Origin: Elusimicrobia bacterium HGW-Elusimicrobia-3
Lineage (GTDB): Bacteria; Elusimicrobiota; Elusimicrobia; Elusimicrobiales; UBA9959
Assembly (NCBI GenBank): GCA_002840355.1
Contig: PHAL01000009.1
Location: 1-64,000, forward strand
Direction of reading: 5' to 3'
DNA: 64,000 bases
The translations under genes were made by a program, and so were the position numbers. Position 1 is the stretch's first letter. Every line of letters begins with the position of its first letter. The notes below the pieces were generated by a model, which saw nothing but the letters and a program-made list of their open reading frames with translations, did no database searches and was not told where the DNA came from. Shown piece by piece: positions 28,067-40,499 of this stretch.

Positions 28067-31000
28067 ATGACGTTAAACTTGATAGCGGCCATGCTGTTGC
28101 TCCTGGCGCAAGCAGCCGCCGCGCAGACTAAAAGCGCCGGGATCATTACCGTGCTCGGTGACGCGGCGGACTACTCGTCCGCCAGCGCGGGGCAGTCGCA
28201 TGCCGACGGCAAGGTGGTGCAGGGGGGGCTGGCCGGCGCGGCCCACGGCTCGCAGGAGTTCCATAATATCAGCAGCGACATCGTGCTTGAATCGGGCTTC
28301 TACTCGAAGCTTGTTTCCTCGGCCGCCGCCCTGGACTATGCGGCGCAAGGTGTAAGCAGTTATACGCTGGCTTGGACGGAGCAGGGCTGGCCTTATCCCG
28401 CCAATCCCGCCGGTACCACCTACGACCTCTTCGTCTCCACCTGGGCCGAGGCCGATCCGTACATGGTCACCTATTCTACCGACGAGCACGGCTACCCGGT
28501 GGAAAGCCTGGCCCCTAATACCAGCTACTACAATTTCCTGCTGGCCAACTACATGGAGGGTGACTACTCCTCTTACGCCTCCTCAACCGCGGTTACGCTG
28601 GCGGCGGTTCCTTCCACCGGGGTTTTCACCCTGACGGACGCCGGCCACAGCACGCTGGGGCTGGCTTTCGCTTACTCCGGCAACCCGCCGCCGCAGCTCG
28701 GCGGCTGGGAAACCGCCGCGCCGCCGGACACTTTGCCCGCCCCGCGTTCGGGAGCCGCCGCGGTGGTTTACGGTTCCCACGTTTACTTGAGCGGCGGCTT
28801 CGACGGCGTTTACTATTCCAGCGCCGTTTTCAGGGCCGAGATCGCCGCCGACGGTTCTCTCGGCGCATGGCTCACGGCGGGGTACATGCCTGAAGGGCTG
28901 TACGGCCACCAGGCGGTGGCCGCGCGCGGCCGCCTGTACATCCTGGGCGGTTCCGTTTCAGGCGAGGCGCGCAACGAGGTCTGGTCCGCCGACCTCTCCT
29001 CGGCCGGGGCGATCGGCGCCTGGCAGACCGAGATCGCTTTCAACGACGCGGTCTATTTTCACGCGGCCGCGCTGGCCGGCAGCCGCATCTATGTCGCCGG
29101 CGGCTACAAATCCGGCACAGGCGTGCTGGGTACATTAAATTATGCCGATATCGGACCCGACGGCACCTTGTCCGCCTGGCAGGGTGCGGGAGGGGGCATG
29201 CCCTCGCCCCGCTACGGCCACTCGCTGACCGCCCTGGAGGGGCGCCTGCTGCTGGCCGGCGGCCGGGACGGGGCCGAGGCCAGGGCCGAGACCTGGATCT
29301 ACGACCCTGCCGGCGACAGCTGGACCCCTTACACCCCGCTGCCTTCGCCCCGCTATGGCCACGCGGCGGCGGCCGCGGATAACCGGCTCTATCTGCTCGG
29401 CGGCAACAACGGTTACGGCCCGCAGCGGCACGTGTTCCACAGCAATGTGCCGGCCTCCGGCACCGCGCCCTGGGAAGCCGGCCAGCCCGTTCCGGCCGAG
29501 CGCCAGTTCGCCGCCCCGGCCCTCACCGGCCCGCGGCTCTACCTCTTCGGAGGTTCGCCCGGTTCGGCGGCGGCGGATTCCGTCTATTCGGCGAGGGTGC
29601 TGGGCGCCGAGTACGAGGCGCAGGTGGCCCTGAACGCCGGCTTCACCGGCGCCAAGACTTCAGGCTGGTCCGCCGGCCCGTCGTTCGCCTTCACCGGGCT
29701 GCAGCCGGCCACGCAGTATTACTACCGCGCCCGGGCCCGCAACTGGGCCGGCGTGGCAACCGACTACTCCCAGAGCGGGTCCACCTTCACCTATGCCGCC
29801 GTGCCAGGTACCGCCGCCTGGACCAATGTCTGGGTGGATTCGGCAACCGTGAATTGGACGGCCAACGGCAACCCGGCCGGTTCCGATTATAGCCTGGTCT
29901 ACTCCTCTTACCCGGATTACTCCTACCCGCACAGCCTCAGTGTGGCCGGCGCGCTTTCGGTCGACCTCAGCGGCCTGGAGCAGAGCACCACCTATTACGC
30001 CCGGGTCCGCCTGCAGGACGGGGATTTCCTGTCGCGCTACGCCGACCTGCCGCCGGCGCGCACCAGCTTCGACCCGGCCCTCGACATCAGCAGTCCCACC
30101 ATAGATGATCAGCAGGGCGACATCCCCGGCTGGCGGTCCACCAACACCTTCCTCTGCGACGTGAACTTCGCCGATGTCGGCGCGGCCGGCCTGGACCGCA
30201 TAGAGCTGCGCGTCTCCACCCGGGCGGCGGACCCGAATAGTTTCGTCGGCGCCTGGACCGCGGCCATCACGGCCATCAACCAGGATTCCTACGCGGCCGA
30301 CTGGCCGCTGACGCAGCCGGTCTGGGAGACCATGCTGGACGGCGCTTCCAACTACGTTTCCGTCCGCGCCTATGACCGCTCCGGCAATTACAGCGAGCAG
30401 CTGGAGCTGTTCATGGTGCGCAAGGACACCACGCCTCCGGAGATAATCTCGGCGTACCTGGCCCCGCTGGCCTGGCAGATAGATTATCCCGGCGACGTCA
30501 CGGGCCTGGATTTCGGCGACCCGCTGTCGGGCCTGGCCCGGGTGCAGTATAGCGTAAGCGCCTCCAAGAACTTCGCGGACGGCGCTGTGATCCCGTGGAC
30601 GGACATCCCGGGGCTGACCCCCGGCGCCACCTGGTACCGGCCCACGCTGACCTACAGTTTCAACGCGCTGGCCAACGCCACCTCCAATTACTTCAGCTTC
30701 AGGGCTGTCGACGTGGCCGGCTCCACCCGCACGCTCGCCGACGCCTTCGGCATAGCCAAGAACGTCAGCGGCCCCATAGTGGGCATCTCCACGCCCACCG
30801 CCCTGTTCCTGTCCACGTTCACGCTGGTCTCCGGCGACACCGCCGAGACCAACGCCCACCAGGTGGAGGGGACCGAGGTGTCCATCCGCGACCTGACCAG
30901 CCTGCTCTACTATAACGCCGGAGCTTTCCTCTCCGGCTCGCAGGCCTGGCAGGACGCGCAGGATTTCCCCAGCAGCTATACCATCATCTTCCAGAACCTG

Positions 31001-32674
31001 CCGCTGCTCAGCGGGCGCCAGTACCAGGTGGTGGCCCGTTCTTCCGACGCTGCCGGGGACTACTCGCAGCTGCTGGCCACCCATACCTTTACTTTCGACG
31101 CGGCCGCCCCGGCCGCCGTGGTGCTGTACCCCGCCGACGGCTCCACCGCGGCCTCCGTGGCCGCCGTCAGCGGCACCGCCGCCGACCCGCAGTCCGGCAT
31201 AACCTCCGTGGACGCGGCGCTGAAGCGCCTCTCCGACGGTAAATGGTGGAAGAACTCCGTATCCGAATGGGACGCCGTGCCCGAGCCGCTGCAGGCCGGC
31301 ACCACGCCCTACTGGACCTGGACTTTCCAGCCTTACCTGCGCGACTCGCTGGCGCACGGCGCCTCCTACTATGTAACGGTGCGCGCCTCCGACCTGGCCG
31401 TGCCGGTAAATACCGGCGCTTTCCACGTTTCGGGCTCCACGTTCACCTACACCGACGCCACGCCGCCGCCGCCCACGGGCGGCCTGGCCGCCGCTCCCGG
31501 GGCTTTCAGCGGCGCCGTCAACCTCTCCTGGCCTTCCGCCGGCGACAACGCGGCCGGCGGCTACCTGCTGGAGGGCTCGTACAAGATAGCCTATTCCACC
31601 TATACGGGCGCCCCCGTGTCCACGGATACGGCCCAGGTGGCCATCGCCACCGCCGCCGTCACCGCCGGCACCACGCGCTACTGGACGCTGACCGGCCTGG
31701 ACCCGGCCGCCGTCTACTATTTCACGCTCTGGACCGCCGACGACGCGCTGAACTGGTCCTCGGTCTCCAACGAGGCCTCGGCCCTGAGCGGGGCCCCCGA
31801 CAGCGGCGCGCTGACCGGCAGCGTCACCGACGCCTCCGCCCAGCCGCTGACCGGCGTGCTGGTAGAGGCCCGCTCGCCCGCGGGGGCGCTGGAGGGCAGC
31901 GACTACACCGACGCTTTCGGCGCGTACTCCATCCCTGGAGTGGACTCGCTCTTCGTCACTGTCCGGGCGGTCTGGACCGCGCAGGACATAGAGAGCTCCG
32001 TTTCCAAGGAGAGCGTGCCCAACGGGTCCTCCGGCGTGAACTTCAGCCTGAGCGTCTCCTACCAGCTGGCCAGTATTCTCGGCACGATCCCGTCGAACTA
32101 CCTGCCGGCCTCTTCCGCGGCCAGGCCCGCCTCCGCGCGTTATACCACGCGCGAGACCCGGACTTCTTCCGGCGCGGAGCCCTTCGTGGAGCTGTTCAGC
32201 CGCGGCCGCCGCATAGGCGCGGCCTACACCGACGCCGCCGGCTCGTTCGAGATCCCGAACCTGCTGCCCGGCACCTACTCGCTGCGCGTCTTCAACGGCT
32301 CGGAGTTCAGCAGGCTGGAGACGGTCAAGCTGGGGCCCGGCGAGCGGCTGGTCTTCTCGCCGCAGTGGGACCTGCTCAACAAGGCCGGCGTCTTCGCCTA
32401 TCCCAACCCGGCCAGTACCGAGGTTCACTTCCACTTCTCGCCGTCCGCGGTCTCTTTCAGGGCCGAGGTACAGATCTTCGATATCTCCGGGCGCCTGGTG
32501 AGGACGCTCAGCGACCACGCGCCGGACCTGCCGCAGCTCGGCGGCAGGCGCCTGACCTGGGACCTGGCGCGCGACGGCGCGGCGCCGGGCGTGTATCTCT
32601 TCGTGCTGCGGGTTAAAGACGTCTCCACCGGCCGGGCGGAGAAGGTGGTAAAGAAGTTCGCGGTGGTGCGTTAG
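28067..32674 (+). CDS. Large Kelch-like/FN3/Ig surface protein with carboxypeptidase-regulatory-like and T9SS-A/FlgD-like C-terminal domain
   Basis: Signal peptide; Kelch-like GSHVYLSGGFDG..., RLYILGGS...; FN3 TTYYARVRLQDGD; C-terminal FAYPNPASTEVHFHF...QIFDISGRLVRTL...GVYLFVLRVKD...KFAVVR. Confidence 0.85.
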   Translation: MTLNLIAAMLLLLAQAAAAQTKSAGIITVLGDAADYSSASAGQSHADGKVVQGGLAGAAHGSQEFHNISSDIVLESGFYSKLVSSAAALDYAAQGVSSYTLAWTEQGWPYPANPAGTTYDLFVSTWAEADPYMVTYSTDEHGYPVESLAPNTSYYNFLLANYMEGDYSSYASSTAVTLAAVPSTGVFTLTDAGHSTLGLAFAYSGNPPPQLGGWETAAPPDTLPAPRSGAAAVVYGSHVYLSGGFDGVYYSSAVFRAEIAADGSLGAWLTAGYMPEGLYGHQAVAARGRLYILGGSVSGEARNEVWSADLSSAGAIGAWQTEIAFNDAVYFHAAALAGSRIYVAGGYKSGTGVLGTLNYADIGPDGTLSAWQGAGGGMPSPRYGHSLTALEGRLLLAGGRDGAEARAETWIYDPAGDSWTPYTPLPSPRYGHAAAAADNRLYLLGGNNGYGPQRHVFHSNVPASGTAPWEAGQPVPAERQFAAPALTGPRLYLFGGSPGSAAADSVYSARVLGAEYEAQVALNAGFTGAKTSGWSAGPSFAFTGLQPATQYYYRARARNWAGVATDYSQSGSTFTYAAVPGTAAWTNVWVDSATVNWTANGNPAGSDYSLVYSSYPDYSYPHSLSVAGALSVDLSGLEQSTTYYARVRLQDGDFLSRYADLPPARTSFDPALDISSPTIDDQQGDIPGWRSTNTFLCDVNFADVGAAGLDRIELRVSTRAADPNSFVGAWTAAITAINQDSYAADWPLTQPVWETMLDGASNYVSVRAYDRSGNYSEQLELFMVRKDTTPPEIISAYLAPLAWQIDYPGDVTGLDFGDPLSGLARVQYSVSASKNFADGAVIPWTDIPGLTPGATWYRPTLTYSFNALANATSNYFSFRAVDVAGSTRTLADAFGIAKNVSGPIVGISTPTALFLSTFTLVSGDTAETNAHQVEGTEVSIRDLTSLLYYNAGAFLSGSQAWQDAQDFPSSYTIIFQNLPLLSGRQYQVVARSSDAAGDYSQLLATHTFTFDAAAPAAVVLYPADGSTAASVAAVSGTAADPQSGITSVDAALKRLSDGKWWKNSVSEWDAVPEPLQAGTTPYWTWTFQPYLRDSLAHGASYYVTVRASDLAVPVNTGAFHVSGSTFTYTDATPPPPTGGLAAAPGAFSGAVNLSWPSAGDNAAGGYLLEGSYKIAYSTYTGAPVSTDTAQVAIATAAVTAGTTRYWTLTGLDPAAVYYFTLWTADDALNWSSVSNEASALSGAPDSGALTGSVTDASAQPLTGVLVEARSPAGALEGSDYTDAFGAYSIPGVDSLFVTVRAVWTAQDIESSVSKESVPNGSSGVNFSLSVSYQLASILGTIPSNYLPASSAARPASARYTTRETRTSSGAEPFVELFSRGRRIGAAYTDAAGSFEIPNLLPGTYSLRVFNGSEFSRLETVKLGPGERLVFSPQWDLLNKAGVFAYPNPASTEVHFHFSPSAVSFRAEVQIFDISGRLVRTLSDHAPDLPQLGGRRLTWDLARDGAAPGVYLFVLRVKDVSTGRAEKVVKKFAVVR

Positions 32675-32720: not shown

Positions 32721-34634
32721 ATGCGTAAACTTGCCGTACTCATACTTTTCTCTCTCGTTTGTCAGGCCCGGCCGCTGCTGGCGCAGGACGCCGCGAGCCT
32801 GCAGTTCACGGTGGCCGCGCCCGACCCGGTGATGGCCGGCGAGGAAGTGACCCTGCAGACGCTGGCCGTCAACAGCGGCGCCTCCGTGTGGGAGCGCGGC
32901 AGCTACTACTGGATCGGCGAGGTGTACGCCATAGAGGGGGAGGGCCGCCGCTTCCTTACCCAGACGGCCTCCGTGTCGCCGGCCGAGGACGTGGCCCCGG
33001 GCGCGGCGCAGGGCGTGCAGCTGCCGTTCCGCGTGCCCGACAACCTGGCCGGGCGGCGCCTGCTCTACCGCGTGTTCCTCATCAAGGACGGCCGCCGCAT
33101 CCTCGAGACGGATTTCAAGGGCTTCCAGGTCATAGAGAAGGAACTGCGCTACACGATCCCCGAGGATTTCAAGATCGGCGGCGACGTCTCCTTCACCTAC
33201 AAGAACAACAGCCGCGACGGCTGGGACCACCACCAGGGCATCACCTCGGCCAACCTCGTGGGCAAGATCCGGCAATCCTCCTTCCTGTTCAATACCTACG
33301 TGGTGCACACCTATCACCGGCCGATCACGCCCACGATCGTGCTGCTCAACTACTACGCCCCGTGGGGCACGCTTAGCATCGGCGATATCTCGCCCACCCT
33401 GACGCCGCTGTCGATGGACGGGCAGGGCATGCGCGGCGTCTCGTTCGAGCGGGCGCGGGGGAAATACTCGCTGCTGGCCCTGGTGGGCCGCATCGTGGCG
33501 CCCGAGGAGCCGGGCCCGAACAGCGGCGGCCGCTTCGCGCGCTACACCAGCGGCCTGAAGGCCGGCTGGCAGTTCCGGCCCAACCTCAAGGTCTCCGTGG
33601 ACGCGGTGATGAGCCGCGACGACATGCACTCCATCAACATCACCACGACGGCGCTGACCATAAAGCCGCAGCAGACCGTGGTCTACGGCCTCAACGCCGA
33701 GTGGAAGTTCCTCAAAGCGTTCTCGCTCAACAGCGACTACCAGATGAGCGCCTACAAGGCGGACATGGAGGCTTCGGAAGCGGCGCTGGGCGGCTCGGCC
33801 TGGAAGCAGGAGCTGAAATACCGCGCCGACCTGTTCACCGCGCGCGGCGCGCTGTCGCGCATAGACCCCAAGTTCTATTCCTTCGGCAGCCCGTCGGTGA
33901 TCTCGGACCGGCAGGTGGTGGACGCCGAACTGGGCCTTTTCCCGGCGGACTGGACCACCTTTACCATGGCCTACAACGCCTACACCGACAACCTGGACGC
34001 CGACCCGGCCAAGACCACCACGGACCAGGTCCAGACCACGCTGGGCAACATGCTGCGCATCCTGGGCAAGACGGTGGTGAACACCTCGGTCATGACCAAT
34101 ACCGCCAAGGCCCAGACCGAGGGCGTGCAGGACAACCAGACCACCACGCTCAACCTCTCGGTGACCCAGCCGCTGGGCCGGCATACGCTGAGCGCCGGGA
34201 TGCAGCAATCCTCTTTCAAGGACAACCTCGGGCTCTCCCACGACCTGGACAGCTCGCTGCTCTCGCTCAACGGCTCTTTCAAGATCAACCGGCGGCTGTC
34301 CCTGTCGACGGGCCTGGTGGGTTCCTCCACGAAGGACAAGGCGGATTCTTCCATCAGCAAGAACAGCAGCCTGACCGCCAGCCTCTCCTACGCCATCCCG
34401 CGCCGCGGCATGGCCGTGCAGTGCTGGGCCACGCTGGCCTCGGCCGAGAACGACTCGCCGCTTTCGCCGGCCGATAATAGTTCTGTCACGCTCAACGTGG
34501 AAACGGTCTGGCTGAAGAGCCAGAATTCCCGCTTCACTTTCGGCGTGGGCGGGGTCTCGCGCACGGACAACCTCAACCCGGCCGCCGACGAGACCGTGCT
34601 GAACATCATGACCAGGTACAATTACTCGTTCTGA
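32721..34634 (+). CDS. Predicted outer-membrane beta-barrel protein, unknown family
   Basis: Signal peptide; alternating amphipathic strands; terminal aromatic ...IMTRYNYSF. Confidence 0.7.
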   Translation: MRKLAVLILFSLVCQARPLLAQDAASLQFTVAAPDPVMAGEEVTLQTLAVNSGASVWERGSYYWIGEVYAIEGEGRRFLTQTASVSPAEDVAPGAAQGVQLPFRVPDNLAGRRLLYRVFLIKDGRRILETDFKGFQVIEKELRYTIPEDFKIGGDVSFTYKNNSRDGWDHHQGITSANLVGKIRQSSFLFNTYVVHTYHRPITPTIVLLNYYAPWGTLSIGDISPTLTPLSMDGQGMRGVSFERARGKYSLLALVGRIVAPEEPGPNSGGRFARYTSGLKAGWQFRPNLKVSVDAVMSRDDMHSINITTTALTIKPQQTVVYGLNAEWKFLKAFSLNSDYQMSAYKADMEASEAALGGSAWKQELKYRADLFTARGALSRIDPKFYSFGSPSVISDRQVVDAELGLFPADWTTFTMAYNAYTDNLDADPAKTTTDQVQTTLGNMLRILGKTVVNTSVMTNTAKAQTEGVQDNQTTTLNLSVTQPLGRHTLSAGMQQSSFKDNLGLSHDLDSSLLSLNGSFKINRRLSLSTGLVGSSTKDKADSSISKNSSLTASLSYAIPRRGMAVQCWATLASAENDSPLSPADNSSVTLNVETVWLKSQNSRFTFGVGGVSRTDNLNPAADETVLNIMTRYNYSF

Positions 34635-34701: not shown

Positions 34702-35628
34702 TCAGGAGCGGGCGCCGGCTTGCTTGCGGGCGCCTTTCCTGGTTTTGCGCGGCTCGGGCCGGGCGGCCTCGGGCAATGCTTCGTCCAGCGCCTTGAGGTA
34801 TTCCGGCAGCTGCTCGTCGCCGGGGGAGAGCTGCAGCGCGCGCTGCCACGAGCTCCGGGCCTGGCGGTAATCCTTGAGCTGCAGGTAGGCCGAGCCGGCC
34901 CTTTTGAGCGCGGTGACGTCGTCGGGCTCCAGGCGCAGCACGCCTTCGAGCTCCTTGACGGCCAGGTAGAACTTGGCGTCGTAGATGTGGTGCAGGGCCT
35001 TTTCCTTCTTGTGCTCCAGCACGGCGACGTTGCGCGGCTTGGTGTCGTTGAGCCGCAGCTGCGGCGCTTCGGTCTCGAGCGCGGCCACCAGGCGTGGAAA
35101 AGCTTTTTCCGCCGGCGCCAGCTCGGCGGCGTAGCGCAGCGCGTCGTAGGCGAAGGGCAGGTCCGCCTTCTCGCCCAGCCAGGCGCTGATGCCGTCCGCC
35201 GCGGCGCCCCAGGCCCTGGAGGCCGACGGGCGGCGGGGGGCGATGGCCGAGATGTTGCGCAGCCGGCCCTGGGCCGCGACATAGTGCGGGTTCGTAGGGT
35301 CGGTAGCCAGCAGCTCTTCGAGCTTCTGCAGCGCGTCGGCGTACTGGGCGCGCTGCACCAGGCGCGCGAAGGCGCCCTTCAGGTCGGACGCGGAGCCGGC
35401 CATTTTGCGGCGGGCCTCTTCTATCATGTTCTTGGCGGTGGTCTGCTTGGGGTCGGCCCGCAGCACCATGTTCCACTGCTCGATGGCCTTGGAGTATTCC
35501 CCGGCCACGTAATGGGCGAAGGCCTTGTCGTAATAGGCCTTGAGGTCGAAATTTTCCGGGGCGGGCTGGGCCAGGGCGGCGAGCACGGAGAAGGCGGCGA
35601 GCGCCGCGGCTAGAAGAAGTGTTTTCAT
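34702..35628 (-). CDS. Secreted TPR-repeat protein (last gene of motor-like operon)
   Basis: Signal peptide MKTLLLAAALAAFSVLAALA; TPRs AFAHYVAGEYSKAIEQWNMVLRADP, AYLQLKDYRQARSSWQRALQLSP; 4-bp overlap with upstream MotB-like ORF. Confidence 0.85.
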   Translation of the reverse strand: MKTLLLAAALAAFSVLAALAQPAPENFDLKAYYDKAFAHYVAGEYSKAIEQWNMVLRADPKQTTAKNMIEEARRKMAGSASDLKGAFARLVQRAQYADALQKLEELLATDPTNPHYVAAQGRLRNISAIAPRRPSASRAWGAAADGISAWLGEKADLPFAYDALRYAAELAPAEKAFPRLVAALETEAPQLRLNDTKPRNVAVLEHKKEKALHHIYDAKFYLAVKELEGVLRLEPDDVTALKRAGSAYLQLKDYRQARSSWQRALQLSPGDEQLPEYLKALDEALPEAARPEPRKTRKGARKQAGARS

Positions 35629-36275
35629 GATTTGGTTTCCTGTGGCTGGGCCTGGCGCATGATGATCATCTCTATGCGCCGGTTCCTGGCGCGGTTCTCT
35701 TCGGTATCGTTCGGGGCGGCCGGGCGGAACTCCCCGTAGCCGAAAGCCGTCAGGCGCCCGGGGTTTACGCCCTTGGACGCGAGGTAATCGATAACGGAGA
35801 AAGCGCGCATGATGGACAGCTCCCTGTTGGAGGCGAACTTCCTGCCGAGCATGCGGGCAGAGTCCGTATGGCCCTCCACCACCACGCTGTTCTCCATCTT
35901 CAGCAGGCTGTCGGCTACCGGGTCCAGCACCGACATCGCGGTGCGCTTGAGCCTGGCCGAGCCGGAGTCGAAGAGCACCGGCGAAGCGAAGGTCAGCTTT
36001 ATGCGCGAGGTGCTGAACTCCAGTCCCAGGCTGCCCTCCTTGATCTGCTCCTTGAGGTCCTCTTCCACCTTGCTGGCCGCGTCCAGCTCCTTGATCTTCT
36101 GGTCGGCGTGCTTGATGCCCAGTTCTTTCTGCATCTGGGCCAGCGCCTTCTCGTATTCGGAGCCTTTCATGTTGTAGGCGAAGCCGTACAGGGCGAGGAA
36201 CAGGATGACCATGCAGGTCATCAGGTCCGCGTAAGGGACCATCCAGAGCTGGGAGTTGTCTTTCTTTTCGCTCAT
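35625..36275 (-). CDS. MotB/OmpA-family protein (paralog 2)
   Basis: N-terminal TM with Asp (YADLMTCMVILFLALYGF); OmpA-C VVEGHTDSAR...GYGEFRPAAPNDTEENRARNRRIE. Confidence 0.88.
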   Translation of the reverse strand: MSEKKDNSQLWMVPYADLMTCMVILFLALYGFAYNMKGSEYEKALAQMQKELGIKHADQKIKELDAASKVEEDLKEQIKEGSLGLEFSTSRIKLTFASPVLFDSGSARLKRTAMSVLDPVADSLLKMENSVVVEGHTDSARMLGRKFASNRELSIMRAFSVIDYLASKGVNPGRLTAFGYGEFRPAAPNDTEENRARNRRIEMIIMRQAQPQETKS

Positions 36276-36946
36276 TCTCGCGGTACTATGATCTCTATCC
36301 TGCGGTTTTTTGCGCGGCCTTCGGCCGTGTCGTTGGGGGCGGCCGGCCGGTGCTCGCCATAGGCCGCGGCTATCATGCGCTCCTGGGGGACCGAGTACCG
36401 GGCGGCCAGCAGGTCCACCACGGCGTTGGCGCGGGCCGCCGAAAGTTCCCAGTTGGTGCCGTAGTCGCCGGACTTGATGGGCACGGCGTCGGTGTGGCCT
36501 TCCACTATCACGTCGTTGGGCAGCGTGTTGAGCACCTCGGCCACCGGCCCCAGCACCTCGGCGGAAGAGCCGCCCAGCTCCGCCTTGCCCGAGCGGAAGA
36601 GCACCGGCGCGGCGATGTTGATCTTGATCTGTTTGGCGGTGATCTGCACCTCCGCCATGTCCTTCATGCCCGCCCTGAGCAGGTCCTCGGCCAGCTTGCG
36701 CGCCAGGTCCTCCTCCGTGAACTTCTTGACCACGTCCTCGGCCCGCTTTTCCTTCTGCTGCTGCGCGTTGTCCTTGTCGAAACCCTGCAGGAACTCCGTG
36801 TTGGAGGCCAGGTCGGGGCGGACGGTGAAGACGTAGAGGATCAGGAAGAACAGCATGAGGTTGGTCATGATATCCGCGAGCACGACGAGCCAGAGCGGGT
36901 TGTCGCCCACTTTATGGCTGGAATATCTTTCTATGAAGAACTTCAT
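36272..36946 (-). CDS. MotB/OmpA-family protein (paralog 1)
   Basis: N-terminal TM with Asp (LADIMTNLMLFFLILYVF); OmpA-C VEGHTDAVPIKSGDYGTNWELSAARA...RAKNRRIEIIVPRE. Confidence 0.9.
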   Translation of the reverse strand: MKFFIERYSSHKVGDNPLWLVVLADIMTNLMLFFLILYVFTVRPDLASNTEFLQGFDKDNAQQQKEKRAEDVVKKFTEEDLARKLAEDLLRAGMKDMAEVQITAKQIKINIAAPVLFRSGKAELGGSSAEVLGPVAEVLNTLPNDVIVEGHTDAVPIKSGDYGTNWELSAARANAVVDLLAARYSVPQERMIAAAYGEHRPAAPNDTAEGRAKNRRIEIIVPRE

Positions 36947-36976: not shown

Positions 36977-37750
36977 TTACGCGCCCGTCTTGGCCTTGCG
37001 CCTCAGCGCCAGCGACAGGTAGCCCTCGAGCTTCTTGGAGACCAGCCAGGGCACGTCCCCGTCGTAGATGGAGAGCACGCCCTTGGCGATGATCTCCCGG
37101 CTGAGGATGTCCTCGTCGGAATAGTAGCCCAGCTTGCTGGCGATGGGCAGGAACAGGAAGTTGGCCGAGAAGATGCCGTAGAAGGAGGCGGTCATGGCGA
37201 TGGCCATCGACGAGCCCATCTTCGACGGATCCTGGATATTCCTGAGCACCTGCACGACGCCGATCAGGGTGCCGAGCAGGCCGAAGATGGGGGCGAACGT
37301 GCCGGCCGAATTGAAGATGTTGGTCTGCTGCTGGTGGCGCAGGCGGGTGGTGTTGATGTCGTTCTCCATGCGCTCGAGCAGGATGTGGCTGTCCACGCCG
37401 TCGAGCATCATCTGGCAGGCGTCGGTCAGGAACGGGTGCGGCGAGGTGCGCAGCTCGCCGGCGATGGCGTCTATGCCGCTCTTCTTGCCGATCTCGGCGT
37501 AGCGCACGATGGCGCGGATGAGTTCGTGTATGGGCGGGCGCTTGGGGGGAAAGATCACCATCTTCACCGAGGACTTCAGCCATTTAAGCGAGGCCCAGGG
37601 GTAGGCGATCATCACCGAGCCGGCCGTGCCGCCGAAGATCAGGATGATAGCCTCCCAGTTGAGCAGGAACTTGAGCATGCCGCCGGTGGAGAGCACGAAG
37701 ATTATGACGCCCAACCCGGTCAGGCCTCCAAGGAATGTCATCAGGTCCAT
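36977..37750 (-). CDS. MotA/TolQ/ExbB-family proton channel, MotA-like
   Basis: MotA-like length and motifs: LLNWEAIILIFGGTAGSVMIAYPW, AGTFAPIFGLLGTLIGVVQVL, MAIAMTASFYGIFSANFLFLPIA. Confidence 0.9.
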   Translation of the reverse strand: MDLMTFLGGLTGLGVIIFVLSTGGMLKFLLNWEAIILIFGGTAGSVMIAYPWASLKWLKSSVKMVIFPPKRPPIHELIRAIVRYAEIGKKSGIDAIAGELRTSPHPFLTDACQMMLDGVDSHILLERMENDINTTRLRHQQQTNIFNSAGTFAPIFGLLGTLIGVVQVLRNIQDPSKMGSSMAIAMTASFYGIFSANFLFLPIASKLGYYSDEDILSREIIAKGVLSIYDGDVPWLVSKKLEGYLSLALRRKAKTGA

Positions 37751-37767: not shown

Positions 37768-39288
37768 TCAGGGCTTCGCGGGCGACGCCGGAGCAGGTCT
37801 GGGGGCGGCGGCGGGCGGGACCGGCGCGGGTTTTGCGCCGGGCGCGGGGGCGGCGCCGGCGGGCTTGGCCGCCGCCGGGGCGGCCGCGGGCCTCGGGGCC
37901 GGCGCGCCGCGGCCCTTGAGCGTTACCAGGCCCTCTTTGATCAATTGGCGCAGGGTCTCTACCACCTTGGCCCTGTCGCCCTTGTAGGCTTCGGCCGGCA
38001 GGTCGCGCGTGAGCTCCAGCTCCTGCTTGAAGCGCTCCTGCATGCCCCCGGCCAGCTTGGCCAGGAAGGCGGCGGCGTGCGGGGAACCCTTGAGGGCCGC
38101 CGCCAGCACGCGCACCGGCAGCCTGCGGGCCAGCGTCTGCGCGTGGGCCGCTTCCAGGTCCTGGATGTTGGCCAGGCGCACCACGGAGGCGTTGAGTTTC
38201 TTGCCCATCACGGGGTCGAGGCGGGCGAAGGCCGCCAGGGCCTTCTCCTGCACGGTTTCGTCCAGGCCGCTGATTATGCCTACGGCCTTGTCCTCGCCGC
38301 CCACCACGTAGTCCAGCGCCGCCTGGACCTCGGCTTCGAGCGAGCGGATGCGCGCCTCCGGCATCAGGGTCACCTTGGGCAGCTGGGCCAGCGCGTCGGC
38401 GCTCTTCGGGTAGAGGGTTTCGGCCAGCCTGGCCGCCACGTCGCCGGGGGCGTAGCTGAGCACTATGGTCAGGTCCTCGGTAGAGCGCGTCTTCATGATG
38501 AAGGCCAGGCTGGAGAGGTGACCGGCGGTCAGGAACCAGAACGGGGGTTTGCGGCCGTCGGCGGGCTGGGCCGCCTGGGCTTCCTGCGCGCCCTTGACCT
38601 GCTCGCGGGCTTCGGGCTCGTCGCGGCGTTCGCCGCGCTCGGCGCGCTCGCCGCCGGCGGCGGCCGCCGCAGCGTGGGCGCTGAAGGCCTCCACGAAGGC
38701 GCCGGCGCTGCGCGACAGCGGCGCGAGGAATTTGAAAACGGTCAGGAAGGCCAGGATGGCCACCACTACTATCCAGGTCAGGCTCCAGAGGTTGGGGGGG
38801 AGGAAAAGGTCGGCGAAGGTCAGCGGGCGGACCTTGCGGAAATCCATGCGCTCGAGTGTTATCAGGTCCTGCCTGTCGGCGGGCAGGCCCAGCAGGCCGC
38901 CGGCCAGCTTGCGGGCCAGCTGCGCGTCCTCCTCGGAAACGGACTTGTCGAGTATCAGGCTGGCCGAGATCTCCTTGACCATCGTGAGGCTGCTCGAGAG
39001 CGAGGCCTCTCCCATCTTTTCCTGGCGCGGGATGCCGGGCAGGATCTCCCTGGCCTTCTTGTCCTGTTCCTGCAGCTCGGCGGAGATCATCACTATGATG
39101 TCCTCCGTGCCCAGCGCCTCCGAGAGCACCATCCTCACGCGCTTCTCCAGCGAGTTCTCCAGCGCGAGCTTGGCCTCTATGGACGACCGGCTGGCGGTCT
39201 GGGCCGCGAGCGGCGCCGCGGACAGGATGAATTGTGAGGCCGCCAGGGCGGCAAACAGGAAATATTTAATCATTAAGGTCCCCCGCAT
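37768..39288 (-). CDS. FliF(C-terminal)-FliG-like fusion protein (alternative start 39273 gives a signal peptide)
   Basis: Signal peptide; FliF-C-like VKEISASLILDKSVSEEDAQLARKLAGGLLGLPADRQDLITLERMDF; TM WSLTWIVVVAILAFLTVFKFL; FliG-C-like DPVMGKKLNASVVRLANIQDLE...VLAAALKG...VVETLRQLIKEGLVTLKG. Confidence 0.8.
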   Translation of the reverse strand: MRGTLMIKYFLFAALAASQFILSAAPLAAQTASRSSIEAKLALENSLEKRVRMVLSEALGTEDIIVMISAELQEQDKKAREILPGIPRQEKMGEASLSSSLTMVKEISASLILDKSVSEEDAQLARKLAGGLLGLPADRQDLITLERMDFRKVRPLTFADLFLPPNLWSLTWIVVVAILAFLTVFKFLAPLSRSAGAFVEAFSAHAAAAAAGGERAERGERRDEPEAREQVKGAQEAQAAQPADGRKPPFWFLTAGHLSSLAFIMKTRSTEDLTIVLSYAPGDVAARLAETLYPKSADALAQLPKVTLMPEARIRSLEAEVQAALDYVVGGEDKAVGIISGLDETVQEKALAAFARLDPVMGKKLNASVVRLANIQDLEAAHAQTLARRLPVRVLAAALKGSPHAAAFLAKLAGGMQERFKQELELTRDLPAEAYKGDRAKVVETLRQLIKEGLVTLKGRGAPAPRPAAAPAAAKPAGAAPAPGAKPAPVPPAAAPRPAPASPAKP

Positions 39289-39461
39289 TTATATGCGTAT
39301 TAACTGATTATATTATAGTGCGGGCGGCAGGCACAAGGAAAACCACAGGGCGGGCGGAGGCCGGCCGGGCTGTAACAAATCTGTCATTGAAATGGTTTAT
39401 CATTAGTGTATACTATAATGTCGGCGAACGGGCGTTTTGGGCCCGTCTGCCAATTTGCCAT

Positions 39462-40499
39462 ATGAAAATGCGGGCATATTTCGTGAGCACTGCGGCGGCG
39501 GCCCTGATGGTCGTCCGCCTCGCCGCGCCCGCCGGGGCCGCGGGGGCCGGCACCACCGCCGCCAATTTCCTGAAGATCCCCGTGGCCGCGCTGCCTACCG
39601 GCATGGGCGAGGCCTACACGGCCATGGTCGGCCCCGACTCCATCCTCTACAACCCCGCCGGCCTTGGGCTGATGAGCTACTCCGCTTTTTCGGGCGCGCA
39701 TAACCAGTACCTTATCGGGGTGAAACAGGAGTACCTCGCCGTGGCCTGGCGCTTCCCGTTCGCCACCGTGGGAGCGGCGTTCTCCTCGCTGTCGAGCGGC
39801 GACATCGACGCCTACGACGAGAACGACATGCCCATAGGCAAGACCTCCACCGGCCACAGGCTGATGGTCCTGTCCGTGGCCCAGAGCTGGCCCCATTTTA
39901 AAAAGGACGCGGGGCGCCTGGACCCGATGCTGATCAACCCGCCCTGGAGCAGGATCGAGCCGGTCACCGACTACCGCCCCAAGGTCTACCGCCTCTCCGC
40001 CGGCGCCAGCGTTAAGAAGATAGACGAAAAACTCGCCGGGGAAACCTCGGGCACCTACGCTTTCGACGCCGGGCTGACGCTGGTGCTGCCGCGGCATTTC
40101 CAGGTGGGCGCTTCCGCCCTCAACCTGGGCGGGGGGCAGAAATTCGCGGAGGTCACCTCCGGCCTGCCAGCGTCGCTGCGCTTCGGCGTGGCCAAGGATT
40201 TCCGCACCGTCAACGACATCATGATCTTCACGGTGGCTTCCGACATGGTCAAATTTTCGGACCAGGACTACATTTCCCTCACCGGCCTCGAGATCGACGT
40301 GATGAAGACCTTCCAGCTGCGCCTGGGCTACCGCAACAACAAGGACGCCGGCTCCAAGCTGTCGGGCGGCTTCGGCATGAACTTCGACCGGATGGCGGAC
40401 AAGAACAGCCTGGTGCGGGGGGCCCGCGTGGACTACTCCTACGTGGACTACGGCAGCCTGGGCGCCACCCACCGCCTGGGAGTACAGTTCGTCTGGTAG
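39462..40499 (+). CDS. PorV/UPF0164-like outer-membrane protein (second copy)
   Basis: NFLKIPVAALPTGMGEAYTAMVGPDSILYNPAGLG; start moved to 39462 with signal peptide; ends LGVQFVW. Confidence 0.8.
   Translation: MKMRAYFVSTAAAALMVVRLAAPAGAAGAGTTAANFLKIPVAALPTGMGEAYTAMVGPDSILYNPAGLGLMSYSAFSGAHNQYLIGVKQEYLAVAWRFPFATVGAAFSSLSSGDIDAYDENDMPIGKTSTGHRLMVLSVAQSWPHFKKDAGRLDPMLINPPWSRIEPVTDYRPKVYRLSAGASVKKIDEKLAGETSGTYAFDAGLTLVLPRHFQVGASALNLGGGQKFAEVTSGLPASLRFGVAKDFRTVNDIMIFTVASDMVKFSDQDYISLTGLEIDVMKTFQLRLGYRNNKDAGSKLSGGFGMNFDRMADKNSLVRGARVDYSYVDYGSLGATHRLGVQFVW

Follow-up and report, generated by a model that had tools for sequence, protein, structure and literature searches.

A fused FliF–FliG rotor and its stator genes suggest a switchless, non-flagellar rotary motor in Elusimicrobiota

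The window analysed here, a 64,000-nucleotide stretch of DNA from an Elusimicrobia bacterium, appears to encode a switchless, non-flagellar rotary motor of flagellar ancestry, that is, a rotor and a stator with neither a switch nor a flagellum. The probability of this reading is put at roughly 0.8, and the assignment of the genes to a non-flagellar rotor plus stator is held slightly more firmly. The genes follow the order rotor, MotA, MotB, MotB, TPR protein, almost without gaps, and the order recurs with small changes in other genera. It looks like an Elusimicrobiota rotary motor that has found a new use at the cell surface, driving something other than a flagellum; that it assembles a ring, that it rotates and what load it moves are all inferred, without experimental data.

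The rotor gene (37768..39288, minus strand, as for all parts of it given below) was characterized by profile, structure-model and fold searches. Its 506-residue product starts with a hydrophobic segment (residues 1–28; 39205..39288), assigned from hydropathy and a predicted helix at residues 3–22, which agrees with the signal peptide proposed in the initial annotation but may also be an N-terminal helix. Profile and fold matches place a periplasmic, ring-building domain resembling FliF RBM3 at residues 29–150 (38839..39204), in which the β-collar is shrunk to a short loop with a family-wide LPG motif. The single transmembrane helix (residues 172–191; 38716..38775), recognized by a hydropathy of 2.56 and by its order in the alignment to FliF, is the equivalent of FliF TM2. 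It is followed by a FliG_M-like domain (residues 248–345; 38254..38547), supported by profile and fold matches, and by the FliG_C torque domain (residues 356–457; 37918..38223), identified by alignment and by a Pfam match of the single sequence to PF01706 with 37 bits against a cut-off of 23.3. The Pfam FliF_C match of the same sequence was sub-threshold.

The relationship to flagellar proteins was evident from a profile built from 33 fusions, without any flagellar protein, and run against the real FliF and FliG of the phylum. This profile aligned to the FliF of two flagellated Elusimicrobiota over residues 212–390 (E 4e-12) and 232–432 (E 5e-6), and to the neighbouring real FliG over residues 101–315 (E 4e-41) and 120–337. 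Against solved structures, a profile of the N-terminal half matched FliF chains (best 4.6e-9) and SpoIIIAG only, and that of the C-terminal half matched FliG_MC (1lkv, 4.5e-61). Likewise, the AlphaFold model (pLDDT 80) displays an RBM-type α-β domain, a long transmembrane helix and a helical FliG_MC part, and Foldseek matched it to FliF RBM3 rings (probability 1.00, E about 0.02), to FliG_MC (E 1e-7) and to MotAB-bound FliG (rmsd 1.7). The initial annotation had proposed a truncated FliF, reduced to the C-terminal ring part and a transmembrane segment, fused to FliG, and would have been refuted by a structure prediction with neither fold; the profile, fold and within-phylum tests concur in supporting it. 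As judged from sequence profiles and the predicted structure, the protein is thus FliF RBM3, TM2, FliG_M and FliG_C in one chain. In the profile alignments the fusion begins at RBM3, so that RBM1, RBM2 and TM1 of FliF are absent, and the alignment to real FliG begins at residue 101, leaving no FliG_N, the domain that binds the FliF tail. With RBM3 and FliG_MC in one chain, the FliF tail and FliG_N, which form the normal FliF–FliG joint, become needless.

A natural FliF–FliG fusion is not unprecedented. The closest precedent is that of Chlamydia (Bergeron 2016, PMC4768692), likewise a truncated FliF fused to FliG in bacteria without flagella, in which some of the SctJ-like RBM1/2 region remains, RBM3 is missing and a FliG_M-like part is present. 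In contrast, the Elusimicrobiota fusions lose RBM1/2, keep RBM3, FliG_M and FliG_C, and have MotA and MotB in the operon, making them a complementary version with a stator added. Covalent FliF–FliG rotors are also known from the laboratory, in Salmonella, where according to the citation in PMC4768692 they still assemble and rotate, and in Vibrio (PDB 8z4d/8z4g). Those fusions were however made or selected in the laboratory, within otherwise normal flagella, and keep most or all of FliF. In the open-access literature searched, which excludes the bulk of subscription journals and every bioRxiv preprint, no publication describing the Elusimicrobiota fusion genes was found.

The FliM-binding EHPQ motif is lost from the window fusion, where alignment places R268-S-T-E271 (38476..38487) at this position, in line with the replacement noted initially. 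Across 95 fusions the motif is intact in none (0/95) and the histidine is never present, although E and P are often kept; the erosion is strongest in the window's class. (The first count covered 96 sequences including one true FliG, and was repeated on the 95 fusions.) The torque helix has changed as well. Of the residues K264, R281, D288, D289 and R297, the equivalents of which are K400, G415, Q422, E423 and P431, the window fusion retains only K264 and the acid at 289. The lysine of the ALKG motif had accordingly been read correctly, but the later arginine that had been thought to survive has not, since the R281 and R297 positions are glycine and proline. Of the 95 fusions, 84 have glycine at the R281 position; the residue at K264 varies, and an acidic residue is usually found at 288 or 289. 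The variation at K264 and D288/D289 indicates a remodelled torque interface.

The operon's next gene encodes a MotA stator subunit of flagellar type over its full length (36977..37750, minus strand; structure-profile match and alignment), which matched solved structures end to end (flagellar MotA 9lu9, 1e-52; PomA, 2e-38). Two MotB genes follow on the same strand, both assigned by Pfam and alignment: the first product (36272..36946) has a transmembrane segment with the ion-channel residue Asp25 and a peptidoglycan-binding OmpA domain, and the second B subunit (35625..36275) has a transmembrane segment with Asp17 and an OmpA domain. The last gene (34702..35628, minus strand) encodes a secreted, periplasmic TPR protein, recognized by Pfam and from ortholog neighbourhoods. 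The NCBIfam equivalog cut-offs for the flagellar stator were not reached. An ExbB/TolQ-type channel was considered for MotA and rejected, the TolQ/ExbB matches being weak. A Zorya-type anti-phage system is practically ruled out: the MotB proteins do match ZorB models, but this is expected from shared domains, no ZorA model matched MotA, and no other defence model was matched by the five operon proteins tested.

The stator side of the interface can be compared with the known contact pairs MotA R90–FliG D289 and MotA E98–FliG R281 (PMC7564593). The R90 position is K or R in nearly all modules (K89 in the window MotA). At the E98 position (A97 in the window) no window-like MotA has E, and most of the class with TPR-tailed rotors have E or Q. 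With the R90 charge kept and both E98 and R281 lost, the window's class keeps one contact pair and gives up the other on both sides; in the TPR-tailed class, the alignments place the change in the E98–R281 pair mainly on the FliG side.

Rotor and stator are moreover associated across the phylum. A MotA gene lies within 9 kb of the fusion at 58 of 73 fusion loci, a count that leaves out a 74th row, a true FliG; at several Endomicrobia fusion loci no MotA gene was found inside the flank examined. Distance matrices of 57 rotor–MotA pairs correlate with a Mantel r of 0.90 (0/999 permutations), partly reflecting species relatedness, and the paralogue classes branch alike in the two phylogenies. This agreement between the trees indicates joint inheritance of each rotor with its stator. 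Together with the presence of MotA and two MotBs in the operon, it strengthens the earlier suggestion of a rotor that meets a stator without a FliM/FliN switch, which nevertheless remains an inference.

The same components could in principle form a static FliG-like scaffold or regulator, gathering or gating MotAB channels for envelope work similar to that of TolQR or AglRQS, with a ring that does not rotate. The loss of R281 and the variability of K264 are compatible with such a function, as is the ratio of two MotBs per MotA. The latter is shared with the non-flagellar AglRQS system of Myxococcus gliding, which has two MotB-like subunits for one A subunit, it being unknown whether they pair (PMC9389320). 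Unlike the modules here, AglRQS has been described without a FliG/FliF-type rotor, and the MotA encoded in the window belongs to the flagellar type. Against a static ring, MotA retains the whole cytoplasmic region of its flagellar counterparts as well as the charge at the R90 position, and the fold of FliG_C matches that of MotAB-bound FliG. A non-rotating ring is consequently regarded as rather improbable.

Profile searches of the source genome, in which positive controls matched, detected no FliMN_C, no YscJ_FliF (PF01514, canonical FliF) and no FlhA, and a canonical flagellum in this organism was rejected on that basis. These absences are limited by profile sensitivity and by the draft state of the genome (95 contigs, 97% complete, 2.9 Mb). 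Five FliG_C loci are present, and genes for MotA, MotB and PorV-type proteins lie near each of them. One, the fifth, is interrupted by contig ends: a split gene was considered and rejected here, as its two pieces, on contigs C68 (L009) and C76 (L080), both continue beyond the end of their contig and complement each other, the simplest explanation being one fusion broken by assembly. Two open reading frames in L170 were likewise not accepted as a split gene, being separated by an assembly gap.

Within a sample of 199 genomes of the phylum, FliG_C was found in 71, at 1–6 copies per genome. Conversely, FliMN_C was above cut-off in only two, G195 and G032, which are also the only ones with a real FliF; in the remaining 197 it was not over cut-off, with positive controls matching, so that the FliM homologue that would have undermined the initial annotation did not appear in the source genome or in these relatives. 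The two exceptions are rare Elusimicrobiota with a true flagellum (FliF, FliG and FliM/N; L110 and L013 in G195, L111 in G032), and G195 has a fusion in addition. A FliG_MC tree groups the 95 fusions together in one clade (ultrafast bootstrap 97), to the exclusion of Thermotoga, Aquifex, Helicobacter and both flagellar FliGs of Elusimicrobiota, and the fusion is on this phylogenetic evidence of a single shared origin. A scan of GTDB genomes returned 57 loci, of which 56 are credible and apparently all in Elusimicrobiota MAGs, the other being a TPR match in Brocadia. Only two short peptide patterns were used outside Elusimicrobiota, and other phyla could still contain relatives. In the most widespread class of rotor, FliG_C is followed by C-terminal TPR repeats (L006:9139-11079 and orthologues). 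One FliG_MC–TPR protein of 346 residues lacks the FliF part (L112:9336-10376, genome G037, contig C15), and upstream of its gene a FliF-like gene was not found.

This distribution bears on the possibility that the genes are degenerate remnants, fliFG and motAB left over after loss of the flagellum and without present function. Partial flagellar gene sets after such loss are known (PMC12199754), and the EHPQ motif is eroded in the fusions. However, five diverged modules coexist in one genome and 1–6 FliG_C copies per genome occur across much of the phylum; the frames are open with intact domains, orthologues of the 506-residue protein being 60–71% identical between related genomes in the same operon context; the fusions share one origin, with congruent rotor and stator trees; and G195 has both a true flagellum and a fusion. 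The remnant reading is thus disfavoured by conservation and considered very improbable. The survey cited above noted that rotor proteins of the flagellum occur in many genomes lacking filaments, and raised the question of a different function for such parts; the Elusimicrobiota modules provide a concrete, multi-copy and conserved case, in which rotor and stator are co-inherited.

Divergent from the rotor gene lies a gene for a PorV/PorQ-family outer-membrane protein (39318..40499, plus strand; NF033709, 96 bits, cut-off 90). Two further plus-strand genes encode a conserved outer-membrane protein with an Ig-like N domain and a barrel of about 26 strands (32721..34634), which travels with window-type modules, and a large surface protein with kelch and fn3 domains (28067..32674), a probable cargo that ends in a T9SS type A C-terminal sorting domain (TIGR04183, 24.8 bits, cut-off 23). 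The barrel protein matched no Pfam or NCBIfam family, and Foldseek returned generic large barrels only (MtrB, ushers, TonB-dependent receptors). In the source genome every one of the five modules has a PorV-family gene no more than about 6 kb away, a chance of about 1e-5 under even spacing; PorV-type genes are associated with the modules beyond chance. Sorting-domain proteins also adjoin modules. A search of the source genome with the Pfam SprA_N model gave no match, but the SprA-like protein of a relative, used as query, revealed one SprA homologue, so SprA_N, which matched in 35 of the 199 phylum genomes, under-detects here. The homologue is a distant SprA/Sov relative of 1776 residues (L180:1297-6627, contig C31; TIGR04189, 129 bits against a cut-off of 200) and is not at a rotor locus.

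The PorV association, the adjoining sorting-domain proteins and the SprA homologue favour a motor that acts on the outer membrane or the cell surface, although they do not prove type IX secretion or gliding. An outer-membrane or surface output is inferred with about even confidence, and one specifically of gliding or type IX type is a possibility well short of even. A narrower proposal is that the motor powers type IX-like secretion in place of GldL/GldM, its rotor ring acting on a SprA/PorV translocon. The GldLM motor of Bacteroidota, a non-flagellar 5:2-type motor, is similarly linked to PorV, SprA and sorting-domain proteins; here, PorV genes lie beside each module, sorting-domain cargo and a SprA homologue are present, and no GldM was found over cut-off in the 199 genomes (a search without a positive control), the modules having a FliG/FliF-type rotor instead. 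On the other hand, the SprA gene is away from the rotor loci, as are most of the roughly 25 PorV-family matches, an apparent expansion in this genome, and SprA-like matches also occur in family f11 genomes without a FliG_C match. The phylum's type IX-like secretion is thus not strictly dependent on the motors, and replacement of GldLM is considered unlikely.

The most far-reaching model is one of phylum-wide, MotAB-driven rotary motors in which a minimal fused FliF–FliG rotor, detached from flagellum and switch, turns outer-membrane or surface structures in gliding or type IX-like work; it is advanced tentatively, with a likelihood somewhat below even. In the preferred explanation, the non-flagellar and switchless motor, the RBM3 domains would form a periplasmic ring, setting a ring of FliG torque domains beneath the membrane. 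Wall-anchored MotA5–MotB2 units, perhaps with one of each MotB, would rotate as ions flow and push the FliG ring round via the surviving contact between MotA K/R90 and FliG D/E289, the window's class presumably having abandoned that between MotA E98 and FliG R281. Without FliM and FliN there would be no CheY-type switch, and rotation would be one-way or set by other proteins. As there is no export gate, rod or hook, the RBM3 ring would have to be the route by which torque reaches partners in the periplasm and outer membrane, putatively the TPR protein and the PorV-type and 26-strand barrels, and the sorting-domain surface proteins would most likely be moved or presented.

The modules thus share with the flagellar motor homologous rotor and stator parts, matching folds and a torque domain and stator in one set, but differ in that RBM1/2, TM1, FliG_N, FliM, FliN and FlhA were not detected, FliF and FliG are fused, two MotBs are present and several modules occur per genome. 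The fusion defines a very small natural FliF/FliG rotor and probes which parts torque needs, having no FliM, no FliG_N and no R281. The modules are a naturally separated system for studying ways of coupling a MotAB motor to a non-flagellar load and, if the most far-reaching model is true, represent a new class of bacterial machine.

Some further genes were observed at the other loci of the source genome. FlbD (PF06289, 85 bits) is encoded directly before MotA at L006:6134-6358 (contig C83), a flagellar-operon neighbour that persists here despite the absence of flagella. At L007:4024-7610 (contig C78) the MotAB genes are separated from the rotor fusion by genes, identified by eye from the translations, for a histidine kinase, two single-domain receivers and an OmpR-like regulator, and another receiver adjoins a MotB at L009:7217-7597; these could be stand-ins for CheY control. 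Long coiled-coil-like proteins without signal peptide are encoded between rotor and Mot genes at L006:6443-8872 and L008:9968-12302, and are possible substitutes for FliM/FliN.
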